A stretch of 64,000 bases of DNA. Source: Prorocentrum cordatum. Its lineage: Eukaryota > Sar > Dinophyceae > Prorocentrales > Prorocentraceae. Location of the stretch: positions 252,501 to 316,500 of the forward strand of contig CAUYUJ010014205.1 in the NCBI GenBank assembly GCA_963575745.1, read 5' to 3'. Below, in pieces: positions 2 to 64,000 of this stretch. Numbering within the stretch: the stretch's first letter is position 1; every line of letters begins with the position of its first letter. Below the pieces are notes generated by a model. It was not told the origin of the DNA, did not search any database, and saw nothing but the letters and a program-made list of their open reading frames with translations. A program made the position numbers and the translations under genes.

Positions 2-3000
2 GGAGGCACAGCATTCCTGGTTCCGCTGGCAGATCGTGATCAGGAGGACCCTCAGGTGCATTTTGACCATCAGATATTGGCCGCGGGAAGGGTGGCCCTT
101 CTCACAATATACAACTCCGCTGACAACTTCACGATGAAGATCTTGAACGTACACAACTTCGAGTTGGACATCGTTGCCCAGTCCAAGATTGCGCACTCTT
201 GGAAGGAAATGGTCCAATGGAATATTGAGAGCCCTGTTACTAGAGCGTTTGTGGCTGCTGGAGATTTCAATGTCAAGTCAGGTCCTACGCGTAGCTACAC
301 CGATCCTGTTTCTCGGACATTTTCGCCAGGAACCCTGCCTGCTGAGACAGCCCGAGGCACTCAACCTTTGCAAGCGTTCTGGGAAAGACTCTTTGCGATG
401 GTTACGGAGATCTCCACTGACTGTCCCACGCATTACTGCAGAGATACGTCCACGGCGGCTACACTGGATAGGTTCTTCATTGCCATCCCAGCGTACTACT
501 TGCTCGACGTAGAGGTGATCGCGGAGGTGGATATTGATGCTGCCGCTATCTCGGACTCCAGGCTCAGCGACCACACACCGATCACCCTGCATCTTAGGGA
601 TCGAACCCGCCAGAGTGAGCAGACGGGCATACCTGAGCACGTATTTCGAGATCCTCGCTATGGTGAAATTCTTGGTCAGCTTCTTGATGCTGCACAACTA
701 CATCGATTTCCCGCGGTCTATCAGTGGAGATGCATGAAGGACTTCATGTCTGAGGCGGCACGCCAAGTCCGCAATGAGTTGCAGCGCATGCCGATCTCCG
801 CCAAGGACCCTCGTGCCAAGGGGGGGCGCCTCATCACGCTCCGAGCTATTTCGCGATGTGTCTGGCGCAACGATGTGGGCACCGCCTACAAGCTGATGGC
901 CACCACGGCCGACGGCGCGCGCTTCCTGGCCGTCTCCAACGGCTGCGTCGAGCTCGGCGAGCGGCAAGAGTTCGGCGCCCTGATGCGTGCCATCAACTTC
1001 GACTACCAGCAGAGGGAGGCCAGGCTTGCCGAAAGCAGAGCATCCAAGGGGGAGGGAGCGGTGGTTGAGGATGAGAGACGAGCGGCGCGGATGCATAAGC
1101 GACGAGCGTCGTTGTGGGCCCCCAAGGCTCGTCGTCTCGTCCTTGCGGGGATAAAGCCCGAGAGCCTTCAGCACTCTCCAGTAGCCCGGGACCCCGAAAA
1201 TATCGCCGCCGCCCTGACCTCCCACTGGAAGCCCATCTTCGGTGCGAAACTAGTCCAGGAGGAGCCCCTTCAGGAGTATCTTGATCGAGTTGCCCCACAG
1301 CGTCCCCTACTACCTCTTAGACTTCCTACAGAAGGTGATTTAGGACGTGCTCTCAGATGTGCTCGACGTTCGGCCCCTGGACCCGACCAGCTTTCGTACA
1401 CGGCCTGGAAAGCTCGCCCAGAACAACTAGCAGTGCTACACAATCTCATGACTTATCTGTTTGGAGGCCACGCAGTCCCCATGGAGCTTAACGACAGCCT
1501 CTTCGCGTTTCTCCCTAAAGGCTCGGAGCCCGAAGATGCCCAAGGATGTGTTCGGTCACCTGCAAAGGTCCGCCCTCTTAGCCTCAGGAACACGGACACT
1601 AAAATAATGGCCTCTGCTGCTAACTTTCAGATCCGTCAGGTGGCCCAACAAAGCGCCCATGAGTCCCAACAAGGCTTCATCCCAGGCCGTAACTTCCTGT
1701 CGAATATCGTCATGCTGGATGTCGAGGCCCGTAAGGCGAGCATCAACCCAGAGGCTGCCCAGGACCTTCCGATCTTCGCCGCCTACGATGTGGAGGCGGC
1801 CTTCCCGTCCCTTGGCCATCAGTGGCTGTTCGAGATCCTGAGTAGGACTGGGCTCCCGACAGGCTTCCTCCATTTCATTCGTGCCCTCTACTTCCTCCCT
1901 AGAGGCTTCGCTCGGATCCAAAATCAAATCGTCTTTTTATTTCATCTTTGCTCTGGAGTTCTCCAGGGCTGCCCCTTGTCAGGCTCGCTGTGGGCTTTGG
2001 CAATGGATCCGATCCTTAGATGCCTACATGCTGCGACTCAGCTCCCGAGGGCGAGGCACCACAAGGGATCTTTGGGTGGGTGTGCGGACGACGTGGGGAT
2101 GGTGATGCCTCGCCTTCAGGACCTCGTCCCTGTGGCCAAAGTCTTTCAGGACGTCGAGCGTTTAGCGTGCCTCAGGCTTCAAGGAGCCAAATGCGTCCTG
2201 GTACCCCTGTGGACCGAGTGCACGCCTGAAGTCCAGGACACGGTCCGAAACGAGCTCCGTCGGTTGATTCCTGAATGGGCCAATTTTAAAATCGCTGGCC
2301 ACACGACTTATCTTGGGGTCGAAATGGGTCCCGAGGCAATTCTCAGTATGATTTGGGCCCCAGCAGCGGAGAAGTGGTGGACGCGTACAGCTGCGCTACC
2401 GCAATCAGGGGCTGCGCCGTCTGTTCTGTCATTGTTGTACAACACGACCGCCCTCTCGACCCTTTCGTATCTTGCCCAGCTCTTTCCGATCCCTGCCATG
2501 ATTCGTAAGCTAGAGCAACAGGCATTGCACAAGCTGCTCAGGCTCCCGCCCAACAGCCTCAGCCTTGCCGATCTGAATGCGCTCCCATCGTTTTTAGCCA
2601 TTGCCCCGTCCTCTGTGCAGCTGCTTGGCTGGGCTAGTGCATGGCGAACGTCGTTTCGCACGCTGAATCATGTTTGGCAGAGAGCGTTGTCCAGCCTGAA
2701 GCAGCATGCGCAGGACAACGCTACCATCGTTCGCATTATTGCAGGAAAGTTCTCTGCGCCGTGCTGGCGGCGACCATTTTCAATCGCCCAATTCTTAGAA
2801 CGTTCAAGGCTGCCGCCTCCCCGCTTCCCTAGTGCAGCTGGGTGGCAAGCTGCATTTCGAGCAGCGCGCGAGCACACCACGCGCGCGGAGCAGGAAGCCC
2901 ATCGCCCTCATCCGCAGAGGGTATTTACACGCACGCTCCGCCCATCCGCCTTTCCCGATTCCTTTCCTATCACTCTTGGCAAGAGGCTGCTCGCTTGGCA

Positions 3001-3469
3001 AGTAGAGATTCCTGGGGGGCTGAGGTCGGTGGTCGGGAGGTGGGCTTCATGCAAAACTTGCCTTGCGACCCTCAAGCCATCCTGGCAGTGGAGCATTTTC
3101 AAAACGCTGTGCGGCGCGTGGACGACCACCCACAGGCTCCATATCGGGCACCCCCCAACCAGCTGCGTCTGGGGGTGCACAGCCCCAGATGCGATCGCAC
3201 ACTATTTGAACTGCCCAAGACTATATTACCATTGCGCCTGCCACCCTGCATGGGCACGCAGGCACTTTCCAGCCAGCCCGCTCACTCTCCTTGGCCTCGG
3301 GGAGGAGAGCGATTATCAGATCGAAGGCGCCGAGCTCAGTCGAGCCGAGTGCCTCAAGGCGACAGCCCTCGCTTTCCAGATGTACCACAAAGCGCCGAGA
3401 GCGCAAACTATGACTTTACAGCAGGCCATCGACATTCGAGGTGCCGCCGAATTGGCACTCGAAAGATAA
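2..3469 (+). CDS. LINE retrotransposon ORF2 (endonuclease-RT-zinc knuckle), 5' cut by window edge
   Basis: Reverse transcriptase polyprotein of a non-LTR retrotransposon, which copies element RNA into a nicked chromosomal target. The frame is open from base 2, so the GTG at 56 is not a real start and the protein continues to the left of the window. Domains in order: C-terminal part of an endonuclease/exonuclease/phosphatase (EEP) fold, with GDFNV near 260 and SDHTPI near 570; reverse transcriptase with motif A (YDVEAAF, near 1785), motif B (LQGCPLSG, near 1965) and motif C (CADDVGM, near 2085); then a thumb/connection region and a C-x3-C-x8-H-x4-C zinc knuckle (CVWGC...HYLNC, near 3165). No RNase H follows, unlike the LINE at 50.4 kb, so this is probably another clade. 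There are about 1150 codons without stop or frameshift, which is exceptional in this window. Family certain; activity is inference. Confidence 0.9.
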   Translation, partial: GGTAFLVPLADRDQEDPQVHFDHQILAAGRVALLTIYNSADNFTMKILNVHNFELDIVAQSKIAHSWKEMVQWNIESPVTRAFVAAGDFNVKSGPTRSYTDPVSRTFSPGTLPAETARGTQPLQAFWERLFAMVTEISTDCPTHYCRDTSTAATLDRFFIAIPAYYLLDVEVIAEVDIDAAAISDSRLSDHTPITLHLRDRTRQSEQTGIPEHVFRDPRYGEILGQLLDAAQLHRFPAVYQWRCMKDFMSEAARQVRNELQRMPISAKDPRAKGGRLITLRAISRCVWRNDVGTAYKLMATTADGARFLAVSNGCVELGERQEFGALMRAINFDYQQREARLAESRASKGEGAVVEDERRAARMHKRRASLWAPKARRLVLAGIKPESLQHSPVARDPENIAAALTSHWKPIFGAKLVQEEPLQEYLDRVAPQRPLLPLRLPTEGDLGRALRCARRSAPGPDQLSYTAWKARPEQLAVLHNLMTYLFGGHAVPMELNDSLFAFLPKGSEPEDAQGCVRSPAKVRPLSLRNTDTKIMASAANFQIRQVAQQSAHESQQGFIPGRNFLSNIVMLDVEARKASINPEAAQDLPIFAAYDVEAAFPSLGHQWLFEILSRTGLPTGFLHFIRALYFLPRGFARIQNQIVFLFHLCSGVLQGCPLSGSLWALAMDPILRCLHAATQLPRARHHKGSLGGCADDVGMVMPRLQDLVPVAKVFQDVERLACLRLQGAKCVLVPLWTECTPEVQDTVRNELRRLIPEWANFKIAGHTTYLGVEMGPEAILSMIWAPAAEKWWTRTAALPQSGAAPSVLSLLYNTTALSTLSYLAQLFPIPAMIRKLEQQALHKLLRLPPNSLSLADLNALPSFLAIAPSSVQLLGWASAWRTSFRTLNHVWQRALSSLKQHAQDNATIVRIIAGKFSAPCWRRPFSIAQFLERSRLPPPRFPSAAGWQAAFRAAREHTTRAEQEAHRPHPQRVFTRTLRPSAFPDSFPITLGKRLLAWQVEIPGGLRSVVGRWASCKTCLATLKPSWQWSIFKTLCGAWTTTHRLHIGHPPTSCVWGCTAPDAIAHYLNCPRLYYHCACHPAWARRHFPASPLTLLGLGEESDYQIEGAELSRAECLKATALAFQMYHKAPRAQTMTLQQAIDIRGAAELALER

Positions 3470-4112: not shown

Positions 4113-5040
4113 ATTTCGCAAACCTCACCGGCCCATTCAGAAACCCTGTCCATGAGAGTTGTCGGGGAATGGAGAGAAGAGACACATATTGCGAAACAGA
4201 GCGTGCGAGGAGAGGAGGGGAAGGAGAGTGCCGAGCCATCTTGGAGGCTGCATATCATGGAGAATCAGAGACCTTCTTGGAGCTACGGGGGGTCATAGTC
4301 GGGCTCTTTGGGGGGCATCTTGGGGCCCTCTCGGGGCTCTTTGGGGGGTCTCGGGGTCCTCGTGTGGCTCTTTCGGGGCGCTTCGGCAGCCTTGGGGCCC
4401 TCGTGGGGCCCTGTTGGGGCTGAGCCCCAAGAGAGCTCCAGGAGCTCTCTCGGGGCCCTCTTGGGAGCTATGGAGCGCCTCCTGGGGCCATCTTGCAGAC
4501 CATCGATCAAAGGATGGGGGTTCCTCGATTCGCCTCCCCCCTCAGGGGGGCCATCAAAATAGCCTCTTGGAGCGCTCTTGGGGCCCTCTTGGGCCCTTCT
4601 TCGAGCTTTCGCGGGCCATCTTAGGGCCATCTTGAGTTTTGAAGCGCATCGGAAGCGAAGAGGCGAAAAGGCAAGAATCAGCGCTTTTCCTTGGGTTGGT
4701 GAAGGAGTTTGGCTTCTCGGGGAGGTCCTGAGGGGTCGCCAAAAACACTTGGATTTGTTTTGTGGCCTTTGTGGGGCCTCTTGGAGGCATGTTGTTAGCT
4801 ATCTTGGGCCACGTTGGGCTATCTGGAGCGATCTTGGAGGCCATTTTGGGATTTCTGAGGCCCTCTAGGAGCCATCTTGGGCCATCATGGACGCTCCAAC
4901 CCCTCGCGACCCCCCCCCCGTCCAGGTCCAGTATAGGGGAGGGGTAAACCTCTCCCCGAAGGGGAAGAAGGGGTTGTGGAAAAGGAAAGAACGACACCGT
5001 TAGACCACCTGTCGCCCAGAGGGCTGGTGGGACTTAGGCT
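4113..5040 (+). mobile_element. Element A, copy 1 (TIR-bearing non-autonomous repeat)
   Basis: First of three copies of an approximately 0.9-1.0 kb repeat (others at 5806 and 46199). The left end carries a degenerate terminal inverted repeat (CTCACCGGCCC at 4124-4134) followed by CATTCAGAAACCCTGTCCATGA, given here in two parts: CATTCAGAAACC and CTGTCCATGA. The middle is a block of short CTTGGGGCC-type repeats containing an ATCGATCAAA box near 4502. Near the right end is a hairpin, CTCCCCGAAGGGGAAG (4953-4968). The right terminus is GGGCTGGTGGGA (5021-5032), the inverse of the CCCACCAGCCC left end seen in copies 2 and 3. No coding capacity. This resembles a MITE or foldback element; the class is inference. 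Confidence 0.65.
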
Positions 5041-13399: not shown

Positions 13400-13980
13400 C
13401 GTTTTTACTCAATAGCGAAGACTGATAGGTTTCTAGTAGGGTCAAAAGAGAGCATCATGGGTCTGGGCGCGATCCGGGGGAGGATGCCGGGGAGATGCCG
13501 GGGAATTCGTTTTAACCAGACAGTAGCGCACTTCGTGGTCTTCGAGTTCCAAGAACTCCATTCCCGGGCCACATTTTGAATGCCCGGAGCCAACTGTAGG
13601 CCAATTCGTGTTCTTCGTGTTCCCAGAACACCATTCCCGGGCCACATTTTGAATGCCCGGAGCCAACTGTAGGCCACTTCGTGTTCTTCGTGTCCCCAGA
13701 ACACCATTCCCGGGCCACATTCTGAATGCCTGGAGCCAGCTGTAGGCCACTTCGTGTTCTTCGTGTTCCCAGAACACCATTCCTGTACCACATTTTGTCT
13801 GCCCTGCATTGCCACTGCGACTGCGACTGGGACTGCCGTTGCCACTGCGACTGCCATTGCGGATGCGATTGCGACTCCGAGTGCACCAGAATTCTACAAT
13901 TGGAATCCTACATGAATCTAAAGGGGAATGCTTCCAGATATGCTCATACACATCGCTGTTAGGTTGCTTTGCCGGGATAA
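13400..13980 (-). mobile_element. Element B, copy 1 (TIR element with internal 73-bp repeats)
   Basis: Inverse copy of the element at 30492-32050. The right end has the TIR as TCGCTGTTAGGT (13953-13964) followed by TGCTTTGCCGGGATAAT, matching the start of copy 2. The left end has the degenerate partner ACTCAATAGCGA (13407-13418). Inside are a CTGCGA/CTGCCA-type short repeat (13800-13890) and about 3.5 tandem copies of a 72-73-bp unit. It interrupts the methyltransferase reading of the DIRS-like element cleanly. No protein is encoded; the open frames are a by-product of the repeats. Confidence 0.75.
13547..13800 (-). repeat. 72-73-bp tandem repeat of element B copy 1
   Basis: About 3.5 head-to-tail copies, each with CCCGGGCCACATTTTGAATG, then GGAGCCAACTGTAGGCC and a TTCGTGTTCTTCG segment. 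The same unit, inverted, occurs about seven times at 31436-31925. Confidence 0.9.
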
Positions 13981-30649: not shown

Positions 30650-31433
30650 GTCACAGCCTCAGCCTCAGCCTGCCTCAGCCTCAGCCTCAGCCTGCCTCAG
30701 CCTCAGCCTGCTTCAGCCTCAGCCTCAGTCTGCCTCAGCCTCGGCCTCAGCCTCAGCCTGCCTCAGCCTCAGCCTGCCTCAGCCTCAGCCTCAGCCTCAG
30801 CCTGCCTCAGCCTCAGCCTGCCTCAGCCTCAGCCTCAGCCTGCCTCAGCCTCAGCCTCAGCCTGCTCAGCCTCAGCCTCAGCCTCAGCCTCAGCCTCAGC
30901 CTGCCTCAGCCTCAGCCTCAGCCTCAGCCTCAGCCTGCCTCAGCCTCAGCCTCAGCCTCAGCCTCAGCCTCAGCTCAGCCTCAGCCTCAGCCTCAGCCTC
31001 AGCCTCAGCCTCAGCCTCAGCCTGCCTCAGCCTCAGCCTCAGCCTGCCTCAGCCTCAGCCTCAGCCTCAGCCTCAGCCTCAGCTCTCAGCCTCAGCCTGC
31101 CTCAGCCTCAGCCTCAGCCTCAGCCTCAGCCTGCCTCAGCCTTCAGCCTGCCTCAGCCTCAGCCTGCCTCAGCCTCAGCCTCAGCCTGCTTCAGCCTCAG
31201 CCTCAGTCTGCCTTCAGCCTCAGCCTCAGCCTCAGCCTGCCTCAGCCTCAGCCTGCATCAGCCTCAGCCTCAGCCTCAGCCTCAGCCTGCCTCAGCATCA
31301 GCCTGCCTCAGCCTCAGCCTCAGCCTGCCTCAGCCTCAGCCTCAGCCTGCTTCAGCCTCAGCCTCAGTCTGCCTTCAGCCTCGGCCTCAGCCTCAGCCTG
31401 CCTCAGCCTCAGCCTCAGCCTGCCTCAGCCTTC
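30650..31433. repeat. CAGCCT hexanucleotide array
   Basis: About 780 bp of CAGCCT with GCCTCAGCCTG interruptions. It lies inside element B copy 2, at the site where copy 1 has only about 90 bp of CTGCGA-type repeat, so the array expanded in this copy. Confidence 0.95.
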
Positions 31434-31435
31434 AA

Positions 31436-31925
31436 AATGTGACCCGGGAATGGAATTCTGGGAACTCGAAGAGCACGAAGTGGCCTGCAGTTGGCTCCGG
31501 GCATTCAAATCATGCCCAGGAGTGGAATTCTGGGAACTCGAAGACCACGAAGTGGCCTACAGTTAGCTCCAGGCATTCAAAATCATGCCCAGAAATGGAG
31601 TTCTGGGAACTCGAAGACCACGAAGTGGCCTACAGTTGGCTCCGGGCATTCAAAATCATGCCCAGGAATGGAGTTCTGGGAACTCGAAGACCACGAAGTG
31701 GCTTACAGTTGGCTCCGGGCGTTCAAAATGTGGCCCGGGAGCTGAATTTTGGGAACTCGAAGAGCACGAAGTGGCCTACAGTTGGCTCTGGGCGTTCAAA
31801 ATGTGGCCCGGGAATGGAGTTCTGGGAACTCGAAGAGCACGAAGTGGCCTACAGTTGGCTCCGGGCATTCCGAATGTGGCCCGGGAAAGGAGTTCTGGGA
31901 CCTCGAAGACCACGAAGTGTGTAAC
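31436..31925 (+). repeat. 73-bp tandem repeat of element B copy 2
   Basis: About seven units with period 72-74 bp, judged by GGARTTCTGGGAACTCG at 31452, 31524, 31597, 31670, 31743, 31815 and 31888. The units contain CACGAAGTGGCCTACAGTTG. Confidence 0.95.
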
Positions 31926-50372: not shown

Positions 50373-52290
50373 TTTCACCGCGGGTCCCTTGGCGAGCGGC
50401 ACTTTCGGAGCGGAAGTTTTTGGCATCAGTGATAGAGAGTTGCACCAGCTTCGCTCCCTTGGGATGTCTACGATATCTCCTAAGTCGCAGCACCGCTCTC
50501 TCACTGCGATCTCTCTTCTGGAAGGGGATCCGCCGTGGAGGGTCAGCGTTGCCCCTTTGGTTTGCTATGCCAAAGAGCTGTGGTTAACTTAGACTAGACA
50601 GTTCTCGGGGTCTCTCTCCTTTGGGCTTCTGAGGCATGCTTGGAACTCGGTTTTGTGTAGGGACGATTGGTCTTGGGCCAAGGTTTCTGGGCCCCTCAGT
50701 GCTCTCAGGATGACCCTCTACAGGCTTGGGTGGTCCATGAACTCGTTCTGCGAGTGCGTGGACGACAGGGGCCACCTCCTCAACCTGCTCATCCTCTCTC
50801 CGAGGCTCGTCGGGCAGCTTGCAAAGGCTGCGGTGTTCAGGGGCTTGGAGAGGGAATCGGGCCCGAAGTTCGGAGTTCCCCACCGTCTCTGTTGGGAAAT
50901 GTTGTTTGAAAAGCTTAGGTCCAGCGAGGTCTCTTTCAAGGACAAGTCCACCATGAGGGCCCTCGCCAGCAACGCCATCTGGACTAGTGGCGAGGCCAGG
51001 AAGGCTGGCTACGATATCCCCTCGGCCTGTGCACTGTGTGGCCAGCACGAGGACACGCTCTGGCACAGGCTTTGGCAATGTACAGCTTGCGCCGAAGTGC
51101 GAGAGCGGCTCGTGCCTGAAGATATCCTTGCTCTCGCGCTGGACTCGGAGTCGGGCGACTATGAACACACGCTGTTCGTTCATGGCGCCTTCAAGCACCC
51201 TGGAGATGACCTTCCCAAGCCCTCGTCTGACGGTGTTGTGCACGTGGAATGGACGGTGCCAGAAGCCCAGCCCCCAGGCCTCCCTGGCCCTGTGAAAATT
51301 CACCCTGATCTCGGTCTCTGGGGTCACGTTTTCCTGGACGGCAGTTGTTTCAAGCATCCTGTGGTTGAGCTTTCCCGTGCTGGTTGGTGCCTGGCCATGA
51401 CGGATGATAACGCTAACCTGCTGTATGAGATCACAGCCCCTGTCTGGGCCCCCTACCCTCAGACCCCCCAGGCGGCCGAGTTTGGGAAGTTTGGGGGTCT
51501 GAACTTTTCCTTGGAGGCTGGAGCTGACTGCTTCAGCGACTGCAGAAATGTGGTCGACCTTTTCCTCCAGGGCCCAGGCAGATACCTGTCTCCCAGGCTC
51601 CAGTATTCAGGGCTTCTAATTCACGGTGCTGCTGGAGCTGGTTCTAGGATCACCAGCCTCACCAAGGTAGATGCTCACAAGGACCTGGACGAGTCAGGCA
51701 TCAGCGCTCGAGAGCGCTTCATGCGCCAAGGCAACAGTTTCGCTGACTTGGGTGCCAAGCGAGCGGTGAGGTGGCCCCCCAGTTTCTGTGCTGGCGATTT
51801 GGAAGCAGTTGATTTAAAGGTCTAGATCGCCAAGTGTGTGATAGACCTTGCCGCTGCCGTGTTCCCTCTCTTTCCTCGGGTGGAGTTTCGGGGGTTGGAG
51901 CGGGTTCCTCCTCCTCCTCCTGCTCCTCCTGCTGCTCCAAGGCATCCTCACCAGTGGACCCATATGTCGGGGTTCTGGCGCTGTCGAGTCTGCTTGAAGG
52001 GCTCGGCGATCTCCGCCCGTCCTGCTGGGGGTTCGTGCCGAGGTCACAGCAGGCTCGACAGTGTTGTTTTAGATCGGCTCCAGCACCGAGTGCTCGCGCT
52101 GGAGGCTAGCGACAATTCGCACATTTGGCGGTCTTACTCCTCCGGCGCCCAGGCGTGTAATTTGGGCAAGGTTTGCAAGCCGCCGACGACCACAGGCAAC
52201 CGCAATTGGAACAAAATCATGCAAGGGAAGCTCCCCGATAAAGCGGGCGTGACTCTCGATTTGGATCTGGTCAAATTCTTGTTCCTTTGA
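50373..52290 (+). pseudogene. LINE ORF2 C-terminal half (post-RT, zinc knuckle, RNase H, zinc finger)
   Basis: One reading frame of about 640 codons interrupted only by two TAG codons (50590 and 51823). The first part (GAEVFGISDRELHQLRSL; RSLTAISLLEGDPPWR) is the post-RT connection. A CCHC knuckle follows (CALCGQHEDTLWHRLWQC, near 51029-51082). RNase H is next: HVFLDGSCFKHP (Asp, near 51336), AAEFGKFGGLNF (Glu), CRNVVDLF (Asp) and VDAHKDLDE...GNSFADLGAKRA (near 51668-51760). After the second TAG, FWRCRVCLKG and SCRGHS form a C-terminal finger. The RT core and endonuclease are missing, so the copy is 5'-truncated near 50373. The RNase H separates it from the LINE at the left edge. Confidence 0.75.
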
Positions 52291-52968: not shown

Positions 52969-55900
52969 AGCTATCGAAGACGCCTACGGCGAATCACCGC
53001 CGCCCCCTGCCCCTTTGGAAGCGCGTCTGTGGCCGACAGCTGGGCCAGAGCTTGGCCAAACTATCGGGCCAGTTGTTCCCGAGTCGGTTTGGAAAGACTT
53101 CGGGGAACGCATGGGGGAGCAAGAAGAAGAGGAGGGGCAGGATGAGGAAAAAAGAGGAGGATGAGGAGGAGGAGGCCTCTTGGGCGCATCTTGGGGCACT
53201 CTTGGGGCCTCCTGGGAGCTTCCTGGGGGGGCTTCTTGGAGGGTCGTTGGGGGCCTTAGGGGGCTTCTTGGGGGCCTCTTTGGCCGTCTTAGGGCGCTCA
53301 TGGCTTGTTTGACGCCGTCGGAAGACGTCTTAGGGGCCTGTCAGGGTCGTGTTGGGGCCCTCGTGGGGCAATCTTTCAAAACACAAAAACCCTTAGGAAA
53401 ATCAATGATGTTGGCCTTTTCGGGCCCTCCTGGACGCCTTTTGGGCCGTCTTGGAGGCCTTTGGGGGGCTTCTTGGGCAATCCGGAGGCCATCTTAGGCC
53501 GTCTTGGGCCGTCTTGGGGGCATTAGCCGTCTTGGAGGCCATGTTGGCCGTCTTGGAGGCCTCTTGGGCCCGCTTGGGGCCGTCTTGGCGGCCTCTTGGG
53601 CCGTCATGGGGCCATCTTGGAGTCCTCGTGGGCGATCTTGGGGGCCTCTTGCGCCGTCTTGAGCCGTCGGAATGCCGAGGAGAAGCAAATGCCAAAATCC
53701 GTCAAAAACCAAAGGACAATCAATGATTTTGACCTCTTCGGGCCCTGCTGGAGGACCTCTTGGAGGCCTCTTGGACCGTCTTGAAGGCCTCTTGGGGGCC
53801 TCTTGGGCCGTCTTAGGCCATCTTGAGGCCATCTCAGGTCGTCTTGGGTGAATATTGGGCCGTCTTGGAGGCATCTTGGGGCCATCTTAGCCGTCTTGGA
53901 GGCATCTTGGGCGTCTTGGAGGCCTCTTGGGCCGTCTTGGGGCCCTCATGGGGCCATCTTGGGGGCCTCTTGGGCCGTCATGGGGCCATCTTGGAGTCCT
54001 CGTGGGCGATCTTGGGGCGATCTTGGGGGCCTCTTGGGCCGTCGGAAGGCCGACAAGGCGAAAATGCCGAAGTCCGTCAAACGCCTAAGAACAATCAATG
54101 ATTTTGGCCTCTTCGGGCCTTCCTGGAGGACCTCTTGGAGGCTTCTTGGGCTGTCTTGGAGACCTCTTAGGGGGCTTTTGGGCCGTCCTGGGCCATCTTG
54201 AGGCTATATTAGGCCTTCCTGGGTACATCTTGGGCCGTCTTGCAGTCATTTGGGGGCCATCTTAGCCGTCTTGGAGGCCATCTTGGCCGTCTTGGAGGCA
54301 TCTTAGAGGCCATCTTGGGTCATCTTGAGCGAAACATTGGGGATTGAGGTCCTTTCCGGGTGGCCGGCGGGACGGGCCGAAGCCCCAGCTAGCACTCCAG
54401 GCACCCTTGCTATGAATCGACAGGGGGCGGCGGATCGAAGACGACTACGGCGAATCACCGCCGCCCCCTGCCCCTTTGGAAGCGCCTCTGTGGCCGACAG
54501 CTGGCCCAGAGCTTGGCCAAGCTATCGGGCCAGTTGTTCCCGAGTCGGTTTGGAAAGACTTTGGGGAACGCATGGGGGAGCAAGAAGAGGAGGAGGGGGA
54601 GGATGAGGAAAAAAGAGAAGGAGGAGGAGGAGGAGGAGGAGGAGGAGGCCTCTTGGGCGCATCTTCGGGCACTCTTGGGGCCTCCTGGGAGCTTCCTGGG
54701 GGCCTCTTGGAGGGTTGTTGGGGGCTTTGGGGGGGGCTTCTTGTGGGCCTCTTTGGCCGTCTTAGGGCGTTCCTGGCTTGTCTGACGCCGTCGGAAGCCG
54801 TCTTGGGGGCCTGTCTGGGTCGTCTTGGGGCCCTCTTGGGGCAGATCAGAGGTTCTTAGATGCCATTTTGGGCGTCTTGGAGGCCTCTTGGGCCGTTTTG
54901 GGGCCCTCTTGGGGCAGTCGTGGGAGCCTTTTTGGGCCGTCATGGGGCCAACTTGGAGGCCTCTTGGGCGATCTTGGGGGCCTCTTGGGCCGTCGTGAGC
55001 CGTCGGAATGCCGAGAAGAAGCAAATGCCAAAACTTATGAAAAACCTAAGGAAGATCAATGATTTTGGCCTCTTCGGGCCCTTCTGGAAGACCTCCTGGA
55101 CGCCTTTGGGGCCGTCTCGGAGGCCTCTTGGGCCGTCTTGGGCCTTTTTGAGGCCGTCTTAGGTTGTCTTGGGTGCATCTTGGGCCGTGTTGGAGGCATC
55201 TTGGGGCCATCTTAGCCGTCTTGGAGGCCATTTTGGCCGTCTTGGAGGCCTCTTGGGCCCTCTTGGGCATGGGGCCATCTTGGAGGCCTCGTGGGCGATC
55301 TTGGGGGCCTCTTGGGCCGTCTTGAGCCGTCGGATTGGAGGCCTCTTGGGGGCCTCTTGGGCCATCTTAGGCCATCTGGAGGCCATCTCAGGCCGTCTTG
55401 GGTGCATCTTGGGCCGTGTTGGAGGCATCTTGGGGCCATCGTAGCCGTCTTGGAGGCCATCTTGGGCGTCTTGGAGGCCTCTTGGGCCCTCTTGGGGCCC
55501 TCTTGGGGCTGCCTTGGGGGCCTCTTGGGCCGTCATGGGCCTATCTTGGAGTCCTCGTGGGCGATCTTGGGGCGATCTTGGGGGCCTCGTGGGCCGTTGT
55601 GAGGTCTTCGGAAGGCCGAAAAGAAGCAAATGCCAAAATCTTTCAAAAACCAACGGAAAAACAATGTTGTGGGCCTCTTAGGGCCCTCCTTGAGGACCTC
55701 TTGGAGGCGTCTTGGGGGGCTCTTGGGGGCCTCTGGGGCCGTCTTGAACCATCCGGAGGCTATCTTAGGCCGTTTTGGAGGCATCTTGGGCCATCTTGGA
55801 GGCATCTCGGGGCCATCTGAGCCGTTTTGGAGGCCATGTTGGCCGTCTTGGAGGCCATCTTGGGCAGTCTTGGAGCCGTCTGGAGCAGGAAAAACCCTTT

Positions 55901-58900
55901 GCAACCACCTCCGGAGAAGCCGAGCAATATTTCCGGGTGTCCAGCGGGACGGGCCGAAGCCCCAGGGGGAGTTTCTTGGGAAAAAGAACCAAAACCAAAA
56001 CCGAAAGGATTCAGCACGCCAGGCACCCCTGTGGCAAGCCAACAGGGGGCGGCGGATCGAAGACGCCTACGGCGAATCACCGCCGCCCCCTGCCTTTTTG
56101 GAAGCGCCTCTGTGGCCAAACGTTGAGGCCAGACCTGCCAAGCTGTCGGACCATGTGTTCCCCGAATCGGTTTGGAAAGCCTTCGGGGAACACGTGGGCA
56201 TCTTGAAAGTCATCTTGGCCGTCTGGAGGCCATTTTGACCCTTCCGGGCCTTCTTGGAGGACGTCTTAGAAGGCTATTGGGCCGTCTTGGGGGCCTCTTG
56301 GGCCGTCTTGGGGGCCTCTTGGGGCCGTCTTGGGGGACTCTTGGGCCGTTCTTGGGCCTCTTGGGCGATCTTTGGGGGCACTTGGGTCGTCTCGGGCCGT
56401 CGGATGGCCGAACAACAAACAAATGCCACAATCCTTCAAAAAACTCATGGGAAATTAATGATTTTGGCCTGTTCGGGCCTTCCTGGAGGCCCTCTTGGAG
56501 GCCTCTTGAGCCGTCTTGGGCCAGCTTCGAGCCAACTTCGGCCATCTTGGTGGGCTCCTGGCCCGTCTGACGCCGTCGGAAGCCGTCTTGGGGGCCTCTC
56601 TGGGCCGACTTGGGGCCCTCTTGGAATGCTCCAGGGCCGTCTTGGAGGTCATCTTGGCATCTTAAAGGCCTCCTGGGCTGTCTTGGCGGCCTCTTGGGGC
56701 CGTCTTGGGGGCCTCTTGGGCCGTTCTGGGGCCATCTTGGAGGCCTCTTGGGCGATCTTTGGGTGCTCTTGGGCCGTCTCGGGCCGTCGGAAGGCCGCAA
56801 AGAAGCAAATGTCAAAATCTGTCAAAAACCTTGGGACAATCAATGTATTTGGCCTTTTCGGGCCTTCCTGGAGGCCCTCTTGGAGGCCTCTTGGGCCGTC
56901 TTGGGCCAGCTTCGAGCCAACTTCGGCCATCTTGGTGGGCTCCTGGCCCGTCTGACGCCGTCGGAAGCCGTCTTGGGGGCCTCTCTGGGCCGACTTGGGG
57001 CCCTCTTGGGGTGCTCCAGGGCTGTCTTCGAGGCCATCTTGGGCGTCTTGGAGGCCTCTTGGGTCGTCTTTGTGCCCTCTTGGGGCTGTCTTGGGGGCCT
57101 CTTTGGGCAGTCCTGAGGCCATCTTGGAGGCCTCTTGGACGCTCTGGGGGCGATCTTGGGTGCCTCTTGGGCCGTCATGGGTCGTCGGAAAGCCGAAAAG
57201 GAGCAAAAACGAAAAACCTGTAAAAACTTTAGCCTCTTCGGGCCCTCCTGGAAGACCTCTCGGAGGCCTCTGAGGCCGTCTTGGAGGCCTCTTGGGCACC
57301 TCTTGGGCCGTCTTGGGCCGTCTTGGAGGTTTCTTGGGCGGACTTGGAGGCATCTCCTCCTCTCTTGGGCCGTCTTGGTCTTGGACCATCTTGGAGGCCA
57401 TCTTGGGCCAACGTGGCCATTTTGGAGGCCATCTTGAGCCATCTTGGCTTTGAGATCCTGGAAGATCTTTCCGGGTGGCCGGCGGGACGGGCCGAAGCCC
57501 CAGGGGGAGTCCCTTGGGAAAAAGTTCAAAACCAAAACCGAAAGGATTCAGCACGCCAGGCACGCCTGCGATGAATCGACAGGGGGCGGTGGATCGAAGA
57601 CGCCTACGGCGAATCACTGCCGCCCTCTAGAATCGCCCATGTGGCCGAGCGTTGTGACAAAAGCTCTGCCAAGACATCGGGCCATGTGTTCCCCCAACCG
57701 TTGTGGAAACCCTTCGGGGCACACTTGGGGGAGGACGGCGGGGAAGATCAAGAGGAGGCGGAGGAGGAGGAGGTGGAGGCGGCGGCGGCGTCGGCTGCGC
57801 CGCCGCCGCCAGCCAGGCTCCCCCCCCCGCCGGGGCCGCCAGCCGCCGCTGCCCGGCCGCCGCGCGCAACGCGCAGGGCCGGGCGCGCCGGGCGCGCGGG
57901 GCGCGCGCGGCGCGGCCGTCCCGGCCGCCGTGGGGTCCCCTTCGGACTCGGGGGCCCCGGGGCCGTGGCGCACGGAGGAGGAGGAGGGGGCATCTTGGGA
58001 GCCTCTCGGGACACTCTTAGGGCCTCCTGGGAGCTTCCTGGAAGCCTCTTGGACCTTTTGGGGGCTTCTCGGGTGCCTCTTTGGCCGTCGTGGTGGGCTC
58101 CTGGCCCGTCTGACGCCGTCGGAAGCCGTCTTAGGGGCCTCTCTGGCCCGACTTGGGGGTTTCTTGGAATGCTCCAGGTCCGTCTTGGAGGCCATCTTGA
58201 GCGTCTTGGAGACCTCTTGGGCCGTCTTGGCGGCCTCTTGAGGCCGTCTTGGGGGGCTCTTGGGGCCGCTCTGGGGCCATACTGGAGGCCTCTTGGGCGA
58301 TCTTTGGGAGCTCTTGGGCCGTCTCGGACCATCGGAAGGCCGAAAAAAGCAAATGCCACAATCCTTCAACAATTCTTTGGAAATCAATGATTTGGGCCTC
58401 TTCGGGCCTTCCTGGAGGCCCTCTCGGAGGCTTTTTGGAACGTCCTGGGCCATCTTAAGGCCATCTTCGGCCGTCTTGGTGGGCTCCTGGCCCGTCTGAC
58501 GCCGTCGGAAGCCGTTTGGGGGACCTCTCTGGGCCGACTTGGGGCCCTCTTGGAATGCTCCAGGGCCGTCTTGGAGGTCATCTTGGCATCTTAAAAGCCT
58601 CCTGGGCCGTCTTGGGGGCCTCTAGGGGCCGTCTTGGGAGCCTCTTGGGCCGTTCTGGGGCCATCTTGGAGGTCTCTCGGGCGATCTTGGGGCGATCTTT
58701 GGGGGCTCATGGGCCGTATCAGGCCGTCGGAAGGCCGAAAAGAAGCAAAAATCAAATCCTTCAAAAACAATAGGACAATCAATGTTTTTTGCCTTTCTGG
58801 CCTTCCTGGAGGCCCTGTTGGAGACCTCTTGGGCCGTCTTGGGCCAGCTTCGAGCCAACTTCGGCCGTCTTGGTGGGCTCCTGGCGCCGTCGGAAGCCGT

Positions 58901-59845
58901 TTGGGGGGCCTCTTTGGGCCGACTTGGGCCTTCTTGGGGAACTCCAGGGCCGTCTTGGAGGCCATCTTGGGCATCTTAGAGGCCTCTTGGGCTCTCTTGC
59001 GGCCGTCTTGGGGGCCTCTTGGGCCGTCATGGGGCCATTTGGGGGGCCTCTTGGGCGATCTTTCTGGAGCCGTCGGACAGCCGAAAACGGGCAGATGCCA
59101 ACATCTTTCAAACACTTCCGGGAAATCTATGATTGTGCCCTCTTCGGGCCTTCCTGGAGCACCTCTTGGAAGCCTTTTGGGCCGTATTGGAGACTCTTGG
59201 GCCGTCTTGGGCCACCTTGAGGCTATCTTGGGCCGTCTTGGGTGCATTTGGGGCCGTCTTGGAGGCATTCGGGGGCCAGCTTAGCCGTCTTGGAAGCCAT
59301 CTTCGGTCTTGGGTGCATTTTGGAGGCCATTTTGAGCCGTCTTGGAGCCGTCTGGAGCAGAAACAACTTTTGGAACCAGGTCTGGGCAATCTTTCCGGGA
59401 CCCCGGCGTGATGCGCCAGAGGCCCAGGGGGAGTTCTTGTGGAAAAGAACCAAACCAAAACCGAGAGGATCTAGCACGCCAGGCACCCCTATGATGAATC
59501 AACAGGGGGCGGCGGATCGAAGACGCCTACGGCGAATCACCGCCGCCCCCTTGCCTTTGTGGAAGCGCTTGTGTGGCCGAACGTTGAGGCCAGTTCTTCC
59601 AAGCTATCGGACCATGTGTTGGACCGAGCCTTCGGGGAACACGTGGGCATCTTGAAGGTCCTCTTGGCCGCCTGGAAGCCATTTTGACCCTTTTCGGGCC
59701 TTTTTGGAGGGCGTCTTGGAGGGCTCTTGGGCCGTCTTGGAGGCCATCTTGAGCGTCTTGGAGGCCTCCTCGGCCGTCTTGGGGGCCTCCTGGAGCCGTC
59801 TTGAGCGTCTTGGAGGCCTCCTCGGCCGTCTTGGGGGCCTCCTGG
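52969..59845 (+). repeat. Array C: five higher-order units of 1.5-1.9 kb
   Basis: Each unit has a conserved head centred on ATCGAAGACGCCTACGGCG flanked by GGGGGCGGCGG and CCGCCGCCCCC (heads near 52975, 54422, 56043, 57580 and 59508; the first lacks its left arm). Then come CCCCTTTGGAAGCGCCTCTG, sometimes a GGA tract, and a long block of CTTGGGCCGT/CTTGGAGGCC short repeats. Periods are about 1450, 1620, 1540 and 1930 bp. Heads 3-5 are preceded by a shared leader (CAAAACCGAAAGGATTCAGC). All long frames here are Pro/Arg/Lys or Leu/Gly repeats. Unit 4 contains an extra GC-rich insert (57770-57960). Confidence 0.8.
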
Positions 59846-59849
59846 AGCC

Positions 59850-59886
59850 CTTGAGCCAAAATGGCTCTTAGCCATTTTGGCTCAAG
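59850..59886 (+). other. DinoSL relic arranged as a 17-bp-arm palindrome
   Basis: CTTGAGCCAAAATGGCT (59850-59866), loop CTT, AGCCATTTTGGCTCAAG (59870-59886): perfect arms. The right arm plus one loop base (59869-59886) matches the last 18 of the 22 nt of the DinoSL, the leader trans-spliced to nuclear mRNAs. The LINE ORF1 begins 95 bases downstream, at 59981. The left arm is the same leader in reverse. Confidence 0.8.
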
Positions 59887-59980
59887 GACTCAAGGACTCC
59901 TCGGTGCCACTGGAATTCCTAAACTACAGTCGGCACTGACGAACGTAAGCTTGCACCAGATACCACCGCCACGATTCGGC

Positions 59981-60945
59981 ATGGCGCAATGGTCCAGCAC
60001 GGCACGACACCAGTCGTGGCACGCGTCGCACGGCCACGGATGGGGCTCGCAGCCTTCATCATGGTGGCAGTGCAACTTCTGCTCGTGGTGGAATACCGCG
60101 GACCCGTTGCAACCGGGCACGTGAACGTGAAGAACGGCCACATCGACCACCCAGTGAGGAACGAGATCAGCACGCTCTCGGGCCAGGTGGCGAATATGTC
60201 GTCTCAGCAGTCGCTCCTCCCTCAGTCGCAGCCGGGAGCGGACAATGCCGAGGTGAAGCAGGTTGATGCGGCACTTGCCAACCTCCCGCCGGGGCCAGAG
60301 TACGCCTCAGCGAGAGCAGAGCTGACAAAGGCCGCGCAGGCGGCCCGAATGAAGATTGTGAAGTCGAAGCCGCTCGGCGCCCAGCTGGACTCGTGCAAGG
60401 GCGCGTTGGACAGGTGCACGAAGCGCATCTCCGAGATCGACGCGATGGCGGACAAGCCTCAGCTGGCCCGTGCGACGGCGACGCAGGAGCAGGAGAGGCT
60501 CCAGGCCGAGTTGGCGGAGCTGCAGAAGAATGCAGCGCAGCAGCCAAGCCAGCCGAACTCCATAGAGGCAATGACGTCGGTCCTCGACGACGTCTTGAAG
60601 GAGATGTCGGTAGGCTTCGTGGACCCACAACACGTGGCGCAAGCGAAGGACCTGATGCAGCAGCTCGTCACTGGCATCCAGTCCATAGCAGCGCAGGCAC
60701 AGCAGACAGCCTCAGTAGCAGCGGTGGCGGTGCCCGCCGTTCATCAGCCGGTCCCGGTCGACACTTCTGGGGACATCGAGCTGGAGGTGCCGCCGCTGCC
60801 TGGGATGGGGTCTGTCACAGATCCAGCCATGGAGGTAGGACGCAAGCCTCTCAAGAGCAAGACCCCCCCCCCAATGCCACCGCGTACGGGCCAGTTTTTC
60901 CAGCCCCTGGAGCGGCCCCTGGGGGGGCATGAGCGTCCGATCTGA
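59981..60945 (+). pseudogene. LINE ORF1 downstream of the DinoSL relic
   Basis: ATG 59981 opens 47 codons with WWQCNFCSWWN, the first half of a W-x-C-x2-C finger, and a stop at 60124. Coding quality then continues in the frame of ATG 59989 to a TGA at 60945: VRNEISTLSGQVANMSSQQS, a helical Ala/Gln/Glu-rich coiled coil (LDRCTKRISEIDAM; TQEQERLQAELAELQKNAAQ) and a Pro-rich tail (TPPPMPPRTG). Thus one frameshift near 60.1 kb. ORF1 proteins of LINEs bind element RNA. Assignment rests on position ahead of the endonuclease and on the coiled coil. Confidence 0.6.
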
Positions 60946-61589: not shown

Positions 61590-64000
61590 AAGACGAGAAT
61601 GTCCGAGTTGGCACGGCAAATGTGCAGACGTTATGTCTATGGGAAGAGCGACGTGCTAGTACTAGGGCTGTAGGAGTGGTGTTGTCAGGAAATGTGCATT
61701 TGCTTGAATGCACGTCTGCACGGTCTGGGATTGACACTGTTGGGATCCAGGAAGGCCGCTCCATTTCACAGCGCATAAAATCAAGCACGTCCTACACCAC
61801 GTTTGTTGCGAGAGCCAATTCTCGTGGCAACTACGGCGTGCAGATATGGATTTCGAAGGCCCTGCAATTTGAGGACGACCGCTTTCACGTGATAAGCAGT
61901 CGGGCCGCGCATGTTGCAGGCAAATCCAAGAAACTCGGTTGTTCGATGATTGCGGTCTCGGCCCATGCCCCCATGGAGCGGGATCGGGAAGAGGCGAACA
62001 ATGTATTTTGGGACGATCTGACGAGTGTGTTGTTGAATGCACGAGGCAAGTACCCATGTGCGCATGTAGTGTTGTGCAAAGATGCAAATGCCAAGAAACC
62101 CTCGCCCCGAGATACGTCGCCTCCATCGAGAGACAGAAATGACGACAACCGTTGGCGTTTCATGACACTTCTGCATAATACGTCTTTGCATGCGTCGTCA
62201 GAGAAATTTGAGCACGGATGCACGTGGAGGTCGCCGAGAGGCACTGTCTCGTCGATCGATTATGTTTGCACCAGTACCCAGCTTGATGCCGATGTTAAAC
62301 GAGCGTGCGTCGAAGACAGCGCGCCCTTAACAATCGGCGGACAGGAAGATCAAAGGTTGCTCGTGGCAGAGTTTGGGGTTTCCCCAGGGCTGCCATGACA
62401 GCCCGGCGGAGAAAACCAAAGGCCCCGGGAAGTTCCGCTTCAATCAGCTGGAGTTGAGGAGCGGATGGGCCGTTGAGCGATTCAAGCGTTACGCGTGGGA
62501 TTTCTCACCCCAGCCAGGCACTGTCGACGAGCACCTTCGCGATTTGAATGCCTACGTGAAGGCGCCTGCTTTGAAGTGTTTTGGCGAGCCTAGAGACATC
62601 CCGCAAAAATCTTGGATAACCCCAGACACTTGGGTCATCGCGAGGCGCGTTGCTCCCATGCGGAGGCGGATGCATAAACTCGGTTCTTGTTTTAACGCGT
62701 TCTTGGTTGAGCGAGCATTTTATGCATGGGCGCCCTTGCGCGGGTGCGTGTTCCAAGCTCCCTCGCAAGCGTCGCGCGGCTGGGCGGCAATCGGCCAGAG
62801 CGAGACCGCGAGGGCAAAACAACGCCATGTGGCAACCCTCAAAGCAGGCGTTCGCTTGTCTTGGACGCTTCGAGTGTCTCCGTAAAGCCACTTGTCAACA
62901 GAGATCGCGAAGCTTGGTGGCGCGACGCCGCCTGGGAGATCCAGTGTGCGTCGCAATCGGGTGACATGCGGCGCAGGTTTCGATTGCCTGGCAAACTAGA
63001 CGGAAGGCAAAAGGCCACCTCGGGCTCTGCCATTCGAAAGAAAAGTGGCGAACCGGTCGCTGGCGAGCCAGAGCGCCAAGGACGATGGCAAGAGCATTTT
63101 GCCGAGGTGTTCAGAGGGGCGATCGCGAGTAAGGCATTGCTGCGCGCGCCTGCGCCGCAAGACATCGCGCGAAGCACGAGTCTCAAGCTGTCGCCTGAGC
63201 GGGCGGCGCGGGCACACCGCAAGCGAGAATCTTGTCGCGGCGTCGGCCCAGATGAGATGCCAGCCGAGCTCTTGAAGGCAGGGGGAGACGCCATCGCTGT
63301 GAAATATTTTGCAGTCGAGAAACGTGTTGTTGAAAGCGAAACTTGGCCAGACGATTGGATGGGGGGTCGTGTGCAGGAGATTTCCTAGGTGAAGGAGTCG
63401 GACGACGAGTGCGACAACAACAGGGGAGCGCCGTTGTCTGACCATGCAGGAAAGGCATTTTGCCCCCAGCTAAGCGAGCGCATCGAACCGCGCTACAACT
63501 CTTGCCTGCCAACGTCGCAGTACGGCGCAATTAAAGGAGGTGGGACCGATGTTGCCCACAACCTGGTTCGCGCCGTTATAGAATATGCGTCGTCGCATTG
63601 TTTGTCAATATTTGTGCTGTTCATTGATTTGGTCAAGGCTTTCGACGGAATCATCCGCGAACTCATATTTGGCTTCTCAGCTTCTTCCCAAGAGTCGCCC
63701 GTCGAGTACTTGGCGCCCCTCGGCGTTGACCAGGACGTTGCCGAGTGGCTGGCGTCTTACATATGCTCCGAAGGAGGCGTGTTTGAACAGTGGAACGTGG
63801 ACCTGAAAGTTACCTCCCTTGTGGCGCGGCTGCACGAGGGGCCGCGGTTCCCGCGCGGCTCGCTCGACACAGTTGCGCGGTCGCACAAGGGAGGGCGCCG
63901 GGGATGCATCTTCGGAGCTGCGGTTTTCAACGCGGGATACTCGGTCCCGATCAAAATGTTCCACGAGGACATGAGGCGCAAAGGCATTGCCCTACGCGCG
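61590..64000 (+). pseudogene. LINE ORF2: endonuclease and start of reverse transcriptase, right edge
   Basis: EEP endonuclease: VRVGTANVQTL (61608), DTVGIQEGRS (catalytic Glu, near 61735), GNYGVQIWISKAL, MIAVSAHAPMERD, VVLCKDANAKK (the D-x-N step, near 62075) and SSIDYVCTS; the final Ser-Asp-His is replaced by EDQ. A TGA at 62396 ends this frame. The linker continues in another frame (FRFNQLELRSGWAVERFKRY, to about 62885), then back in the first (NRDREAWWRDAAWEIQCAS). A TAG at 63386 precedes the RT: FVLFIDLVKAFDGII (motif A, near 63610) and GGRRGCIFGAAVFN (motif B, Gln replaced by Arg, near 63894). The frame is open to base 64000, where the window cuts it. Two shifts, one stop. Confidence 0.8.

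Follow-up and report, generated by a model that had tools for sequence, protein, structure and literature searches.

A palindromic spliced-leader relic at the 5′ end of a decayed LINE in Prorocentrum cordatum

How does the end of the dinoflagellate spliced leader (DinoSL), in both orientations, come to lie between a repeat array and the first open reading frame of a LINE? The locus sits in a 64,000-nucleotide stretch of Prorocentrum cordatum DNA (the window, in whose coordinates positions are given). The initial annotation described a perfect palindrome with 17-bp arms at 59850–59886, the right arm of which, with one loop base, is identical to the final 18 nt of the DinoSL. The palindrome is there and its arms are in fact 18 bp long: the longest hairpin found in the window with loops of up to 30 nt has arms at 59849–59866 and 59870–59887 around the loop CTT and reads CCTTGAGCCAAAATGGCT-CTT-AGCCATTTTGGCTCAAGG. 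The arms lengthen to 27 bp at 93% pairing. Positions 59869–59886 match the DinoSL printed in PMC6050394 (DCCGUAGCCAUUUUGGCUCAAG, 22 nt) at 18 of 18 positions, as had been claimed, and the CCG ahead of these 18 nt is missing from the window copy. The ORF1 start at 59981 lies 94 bases past the SL, in line with the 95 bases first given. The SL core AGCCA-TTT-TGGCT is self-complementary and forms a hairpin, and the RNA fold of 59850–59990 has a z-score of −6.5. Rfam found nothing at gathering score in the window. Features are collected in Table 1. In an SL RNA gene, a GT donor comes after the SL exon. At 59869–59886 the SL is followed by GACTC and not by GT, and we rejected such a gene at this place.

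Table 1. Features around the palindromic SL relic, in window coordinates
Feature	Position	Strand	Method
Array C, degenerate 11/21/32-nt repeats (GGCC-NTCTTGG) and some other sequence; LINE target	53174..59845	+	TRF, self-BLAST
Likely target duplication, 5′ copy, GGGCCTCCTGG	59835..59845	+	
AGCC between target duplication and left arm; last base belongs to the 18-bp stem	59846..59849	+	
Whole perfect palindrome, 18-bp arms	59849..59887	.	hairpin search of window, loops ≤30
Left arm, antisense of the last 17 SL bases	59850..59866	-	hairpin and word search, ladder alignment
Loop CTT	59867..59869	.	
DinoSL relic, last 18 nt of leader, exact, TAGCCATTTTGGCTCAAG	59869..59886	+	
LINE leader, common to window copy and L097; opens with GACTCAAG	59887..59980	+	
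ORF1 start (MAQWSS...), broken after 47 aa in window copy	59981..60124	+	
Remainder of ORF1, other frame; no family above its cut-off	60125..60945	+	
Endonuclease region, limits by eye	61600..62398	+	
Reverse transcriptase start; LINE continues to C13356:317948	63389..64000	+	

The simplest origin would be chance, with array C, which holds SL-like words, drifting into the palindrome. The word GCCATTTTGG does occur three times in array C outside the SL, and array site 57433 is the SL 17-mer with three mismatches. Markov models of orders 1–4, built on the array or the window, nevertheless predict only 7e-7 to 1.4e-5 sense 17-mers per 64 kb, with 1.7e-4 as the highest expectation for the antisense 17-mer. 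No hairpin in 600 simulated array-like sequences exceeded 12 bp and none in 120 window-like ones exceeded 14 bp, compared with 18 bp observed, and the real array, once the palindrome is taken out, reaches 13 bp. With up to three mismatches allowed, the SL pattern is found at three places in the window (0.23 expected), namely the two palindrome arms and site 57433. Since the array-trained nulls speak against it, as do the SL relics that six of seven copies of the LINE have at this border (see below), we rejected an array origin of the palindrome and regard it as extremely improbable.

Downstream of the relic, coding content and borders indicate a decayed LINE of about 5.6 kb, whose 5′ end the SL relic marks. 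Its ORF1 is open over 330 aa in two related copies (L097 and L098), and a search of a protein database with ORF1 gave 5381 candidates, none with E ≤ 0.001. Exo_endo_phos_2 matches weakly at approximately 62012–62296 (E 9.9e-4) and RVT_1 at approximately 63446–63661 (E 2.9e-3), both under the curated Pfam cut-offs; endonuclease (EN) and reverse transcriptase (RT) are both above their Pfam cut-offs in the SL-headed elements L091, L093 and L108. The stretch GACTCAAG, which stands after an AG at the start of the leader, is a possible older and decayed SL end. Two further LINE pieces lie elsewhere in the window, one at 2–3469 with an open frame containing RVT_1 (E 2.2e-16) and one at 50593–51825 with zf-RVT just below its cut-off.

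The borders place the insert in array C from about 59846 to C13356:317948, and are best read as approximate, the target being repetitive. A (GAA)n tail closes the LINE at C13356:317948, past the window, and array C then resumes (in L095 from base 1550). The 3′ copy of the likely target duplication, GGGCCTCTTGG, follows outside the window at C13356:317949–317959, and is identical to the 5′ copy at 10 of 11 positions, GGGCCTC(C/T)TGG, with limits again approximate in such a target. The flanks align to unbroken stretches at three other places in the array with an overlap of about 10 bp. When 3′ ends were sought in four other copies, three (L103–L105) were located, each with an A/G-rich tail and similar repeats beyond it, and that of L106 was not found within the 2 kb taken. 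The borders of L099 have GGGCTATCT in common.

Array C itself has higher-order periods of 375–385 nt and also longer blocks, each with a CAGGGGGCGGCGGATCG hairpin, and one of its words, GCCATCTTGG, differs by a single base from the SL's GCCATTTTGG. Tandem repeats of 73 nt were found by TRF at 13529–13804 and 31431–31919; by eye, the consensus unit of one place looks like the reverse complement of the other. The translated ends near 4130, 5810 and 46200 resemble one another (..HQP(V/I)(Q/H)K.. or variants); they adjoin tracts of (GGA)n/(CTC)n as well as short pieces like array C, which suggests that an element is dispersed here or that a junction is repeated.

A search for the family with positions 59888–60400 returned seven candidates, and all seven, the window copy included, were scored. 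Over the 140 nt that precede the shared body, the relic unit CCATTTTGGCTCAAG found best matches of 15, 15, 15, 13, 12, 10 and 14 of 15 positions; further upstream in the same loci the score never exceeded 10 in 436 overlapping windows. SL relics, several of them as ladders, are present at the 5′ boundary of six of the seven copies (12–15 of 15), and in the seventh, L101 (10/15), a relic is indistinguishable from the array. The initial annotation had asked whether other copies extend upstream with conserved sequence and lack the SL; there are no such copies among the seven. The window copy and L097 have the leader GACTCAAGGACTCC... in common, and their upstream sequences diverge at a CAAG, which is what trans-splicing to an AG would leave. 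By one threshold (at least six TCTTGG/CCAAGA in 700 bp), array-C-like repeats surround five of the seven LINE copies versus two of 26 general SL sites, 23 of which have CTC/GAG repeats upstream. The latter sites are a non-random set, being the first 30 places listed, on C1 and C2 only, less four duplicates.

We also searched the whole 4.128-Gb assembly of 21,875 contigs. The SL 17-mer has 18,998 exact copies (9610 + 9388; reversed control, 2), the 21-mer CCGTAG... has 14,218 (7201 + 7017; control, 0), and exact double ladders of SL plus 15-nt relic number 1,684 (870 + 814; control, 0). From 13 SL sites on 11 contigs, picked by hand among the first 100 listed, at least 5 kb behind each was taken, and EN or RT was detected behind seven. 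Pfam recognised them in L091, L093, L108, L109 and L113 (the last below the cut-off) and tblastn in L091, L093, L108, L110 and L111. Behind L107 lies a WD40 retrogene, and no EN or RT was found by Pfam or tblastn behind L090, L092, L094, L112 and L114. For a second family, queried with L091:95–600, 40 of 326 candidates were scored. The best 10 of these 40, the query's own locus among them, begin exactly at the SL (eight at 15/15, two at 14/15) and have TA-rich sequence ahead of them. Six more, matching over the first 78 nt only, likewise have the SL at their start, and their relic units carry no more than one change. As a rule, then, members of both LINE families tested in this genome appear to start at the SL.

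Directly after the SL in L119–L134 there is a conserved module of about 78 nt, beyond which the sequences differ. It was seen in 10 of 10 fetched TA-flanked copies and six of six fetched CTC-repeat-flanked elements, and its place and size recall the trypanosomatid Pr77. Rfam gave five weak matches on six loci with the module, none of them on the module itself. A pairing between SL tail and module was considered with RNAalifold and dropped, with no covarying pair and no preference for this fold in single sequences (z-scores of −0.3 to −1.7). SL-headed elements (L056–L085 and L096–L128) seem to be family-specific in their choice of simple targets, namely CTC/GAG repeats, TA-rich repeats or GGCC-NTCTTGG arrays.

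With SL relics in six of seven copies, the relic is best explained as the initial annotation proposed, namely as a DinoSL brought to the 5′ end of a LINE by a trans-spliced and retroposed RNA. The LINE RNA would have been joined to the host's 22-nt SL by trans-splicing, and the tagged RNA would then have entered array C through target-primed reverse transcription, leaving a new copy whose 5′ end is the SL, now encoded in DNA. That LINE RNAs were trans-spliced and then retroposed seems well supported for this genome in general. Against this reading stand L101 with no distinguishable relic, the loss of the SL's CCG from the window copy, and the window's EN and RT scores below the curated cut-offs. 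LINE enzymes are capable of template jumping, and SL relics are common in this genome; the RT could have jumped to SL RNA or an SL-bearing mRNA, or the LINE could have landed beside an old relic, with no trans-splicing of its own RNA. A jump or a chance neighbour would however scatter the junction, and in the L091 family the SL ends at the same element base in 10 of 10 fetched copies. The 15-nt steps of the ladders, moreover, are what successive rounds of trans-splicing at the SL's own AG would give, a process described for retrogenes (PMC3229502). We consider an SL acquired in these other ways very unlikely.

The inverted arm is a separate matter. Its possible occurrence at many unrelated loci had been raised at the outset, and this proved not to be so: with loops of 0–30 nt allowed, the exact palindrome is present at four places in 4.13 Gb, the window, L087, L088 and L089, and all four have loops of 2–3 nt. 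L087–L089 read CTTGAGCCAAAATGGCTCAAG on one strand, followed by the regular relic CCATTTTGGCTCAAG. Relative to these three, CTCTTAG replaces CTCAAG in the window, a joint that differs from the ladder by one substitution and one insertion. Relative to the partly decayed ladders of L097, L098 and L102, the first unit of the window has TTT changed to AAA and CCGT to CTTG. Single inverted units occur 26 times genome-wide (12 + 14; control, 0). Among seven that we examined, a regular or near-regular relic follows in L087, L088, L089 and L115 (the same place as L070), decayed units follow in L116, and none is clear in L117 and L118. Symmetry runs past the inverted unit for 14 bases in L118, for 8 in L088 and for 1–3 in the others.

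These counts bear on whether the inverted arm is real. A fold-back chimera made in sequencing or assembly could give such an arm, and fold-back products are typically short palindromes; yet there are 26 inverted units in the genome, three of them within other exact palindromes, and a random chimera would usually be expected to have arms longer than one SL unit. We judge an artefact to be highly improbable.

The initial annotation offered two origins for the second arm, snap-back priming of the first-strand cDNA at the leader and two head-to-head insertions. Of these the latter would give arbitrary spacing, and the loops of 2–3 nt in four of four exact palindromes do not show it. Snap-back fares better, as a serious rival with less support than the reading we prefer. 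Here the first cDNA would have folded back at the SL, leaving symmetry centred on the SL hairpin and running on behind the SL; in the window, pairing of the first unit around its own AAA extends to 6 bp only. The CTTG arm of the window is complementary to the second unit plus one further base, and is therefore more closely described as that unit's inverted copy. By comparison, L118 (G000:C6114:383828-383848), with 23-bp arms around AAA, resembles what a genuine fold-back of an SL cDNA end would leave. In L099 a leader stretch matching window CCACTGGAATTCCTAAA is inverted, and this stretch lies within a hairpin in the window's predicted fold; L099 is possibly another hairpin inversion.

A related route is twin priming at integration, in which the cleaved top strand of array C (...TCCTGG) would have annealed near CAAGGA of the SL-tagged RNA and been copied 5′-ward, the arms then being joined by three bases. 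Twin priming is known to yield 5′ inversions of LINE-1 (PMC4245944, PMC2837659), and the window has features that fit: the left arm begins just past the target duplication, at most four bases away, as twin priming predicts, and imperfect complementarity runs beyond the SL (the 27 bp at 93%). The partly inverted leader of L099 and the symmetric extension of the SL hairpin in L118 and L088 (14 and 8 bases) also favour twin priming or snap-back, and this symmetry led us to weigh that rival higher and inversion within a ladder lower. On the other side, twin priming would be expected to leave arbitrary joints, and the four exact palindromes keep loops of 2–3 nt that correspond to the ladder period; L087 and L089 have only 1–2 further symmetric bases; the bases just ahead of the window's left arm also match the array's 52-nt repeat; and the exact antisense 17-mer is in none of the other six family copies. 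Aligning the arm to the relatives' ladders, to whose spacing it comes close, demoted twin priming from an array end CTTGAGC. Taken together, we hold twin priming or snap-back to be possible and distinctly the less probable origin of the antisense arm.

The ladder spacing in all four exact palindromes favours the inversion of one ladder unit, and the best reading of the left arm is a first SL unit that has been inverted. The insert probably began as a tandem ladder of SL plus 15-nt relic, as in its relatives. A template switch at the inverted repeats of the SL core would then have swapped the first unit for an inverted copy, turning TTT into AAA and CCGT into CTTG; the new CTTG would pair with the CAAG of the second unit, and the inverted first and plain second units would together read as a long palindrome. 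L087–L089 fit such a switch, and the window fits in part, with an arm that pairs with the neighbouring unit and a joint that carries two changes. The CTCTTAG joint counts against ladder inversion, since an arbitrary joint may apply in the single case of the window, as does the closeness of the left arm to the target duplication. From these comparisons we infer both the trans-splicing of LINE RNA and the inversion by template switching within a ladder, and we think it rather probable that a trans-spliced LINE RNA was retroposed into array C and that a ladder unit was afterwards inverted. In sum, the SL-tagged LINE of the initial annotation stands, and its proposals for the second arm have less support. 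The palindrome would be a small and rare local mutation, an example of inversion at the leader hairpin.

What might SL-headed LINEs mean for this genome? We are evenly divided over the following proposal as a whole: that LINEs here use the host's SL trans-splicing to make their 5′ ends; that the inserted SL, which ends in AG and contains CCGTAG, would provide splice acceptors of its own, so that read-through transcripts would be trimmed to the element start and tagged again; that such LINEs could dispense with a promoter of their own and stay full length; that the ladders would count rounds of retrotransposition; and that different families would have the SL 5′ end in common, some also the 78-nt module, and insert into different targets (TA-rich, CTC/GAG, array C). 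Dinoflagellate retrogenes are thought to arise when retrotransposon enzymes act off target on SL-tagged mRNAs (PMC12014239). If LINE RNAs are themselves SL-tagged, a single molecule would unite the tag with the source of the enzyme, and the recycling of mRNAs would follow from the LINE life cycle. Counts of SL relics are not counts of retrogenes, since seven of the 13 sampled SL sites head a LINE, and SL ladders could serve as a record, copy by copy, of retrotransposition rounds.

The SL search also gave hits on three viral contigs (L001, L002 and L003). In L001:1936-2914 (IMGVR_UViG_3300045993_001077), classed as a virus, there are two full DinoSL copies, one of them approximately 45 nt upstream of a 254-aa ORF. 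The contig is mostly 10–24% G+C and the DinoSL island 39–49% G+C, a pattern that retroposition of an SL-tagged host mRNA into a viral genome would give. The 52 bacterial and archaeal stretches with the 17-mer, where about 30 are expected in 257 Gb, were treated as chance.

SL relics in genes are well known, and as far as our searches show LINEs headed by the SL are undescribed: we found no report of LINE families starting with the DinoSL in the literature searched, a body of text that mostly excludes subscription journals. In dinoflagellate genes the SL or a 15-nt relic lies upstream of retrocopies, and repeated rounds have produced tandem ladders (PMC6050394, PMC12014239, PMC3229502). The elements described here resemble these DinoSL-tagged retrogenes (DinoRL) in their DNA-encoded SL or 15-nt relic upstream and in their ladders; they differ in that the tagged unit is a LINE, the presumed source of the enzyme, with the tag at the same base family-wide. 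Work on endogenous viral elements has noted SL relics near viral genes and named LINEs as the likely machinery (PMC10235124). In Schistosoma mansoni the SL was reported inside 32 gene bodies, six of them transposable or retrotransposable elements, and trans-spliced, retro-transcribed elements were suggested; the authors could not exclude chimeric assembly, and we saw no family-wide test of 5′ ends there (PMC5832876). The trypanosomatid L1Tc/ingi elements with Pr77 are likewise LINEs among SL trans-spliced genes and have a short shared 5′ module, but L1Tc has its own promoter and is described as giving unspliced transcripts, whereas in the present elements the SL itself forms the 5′ end (PMC8190864). 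LINE-1 twin priming also combines inverted 5′ sequence with a target duplication (PMC4245944, PMC2837659); the inverted part here is a duplicated 17-nt leader unit rather than a LINE segment with a deletion. In yeast, template switching at short inverted repeats homogenises the arms and inverts the spacer, as in REG2, where arms grew from 5 to 16 bp; in L087–L089 the SL unit would have gone from 5-bp to 9-bp arms with TTT turned into AAA. The yeast cases concern coding genes with known ancestors, whereas the ancestor here is reconstructed and the inverted unit of the window pairs with its neighbour (PMC8604942).
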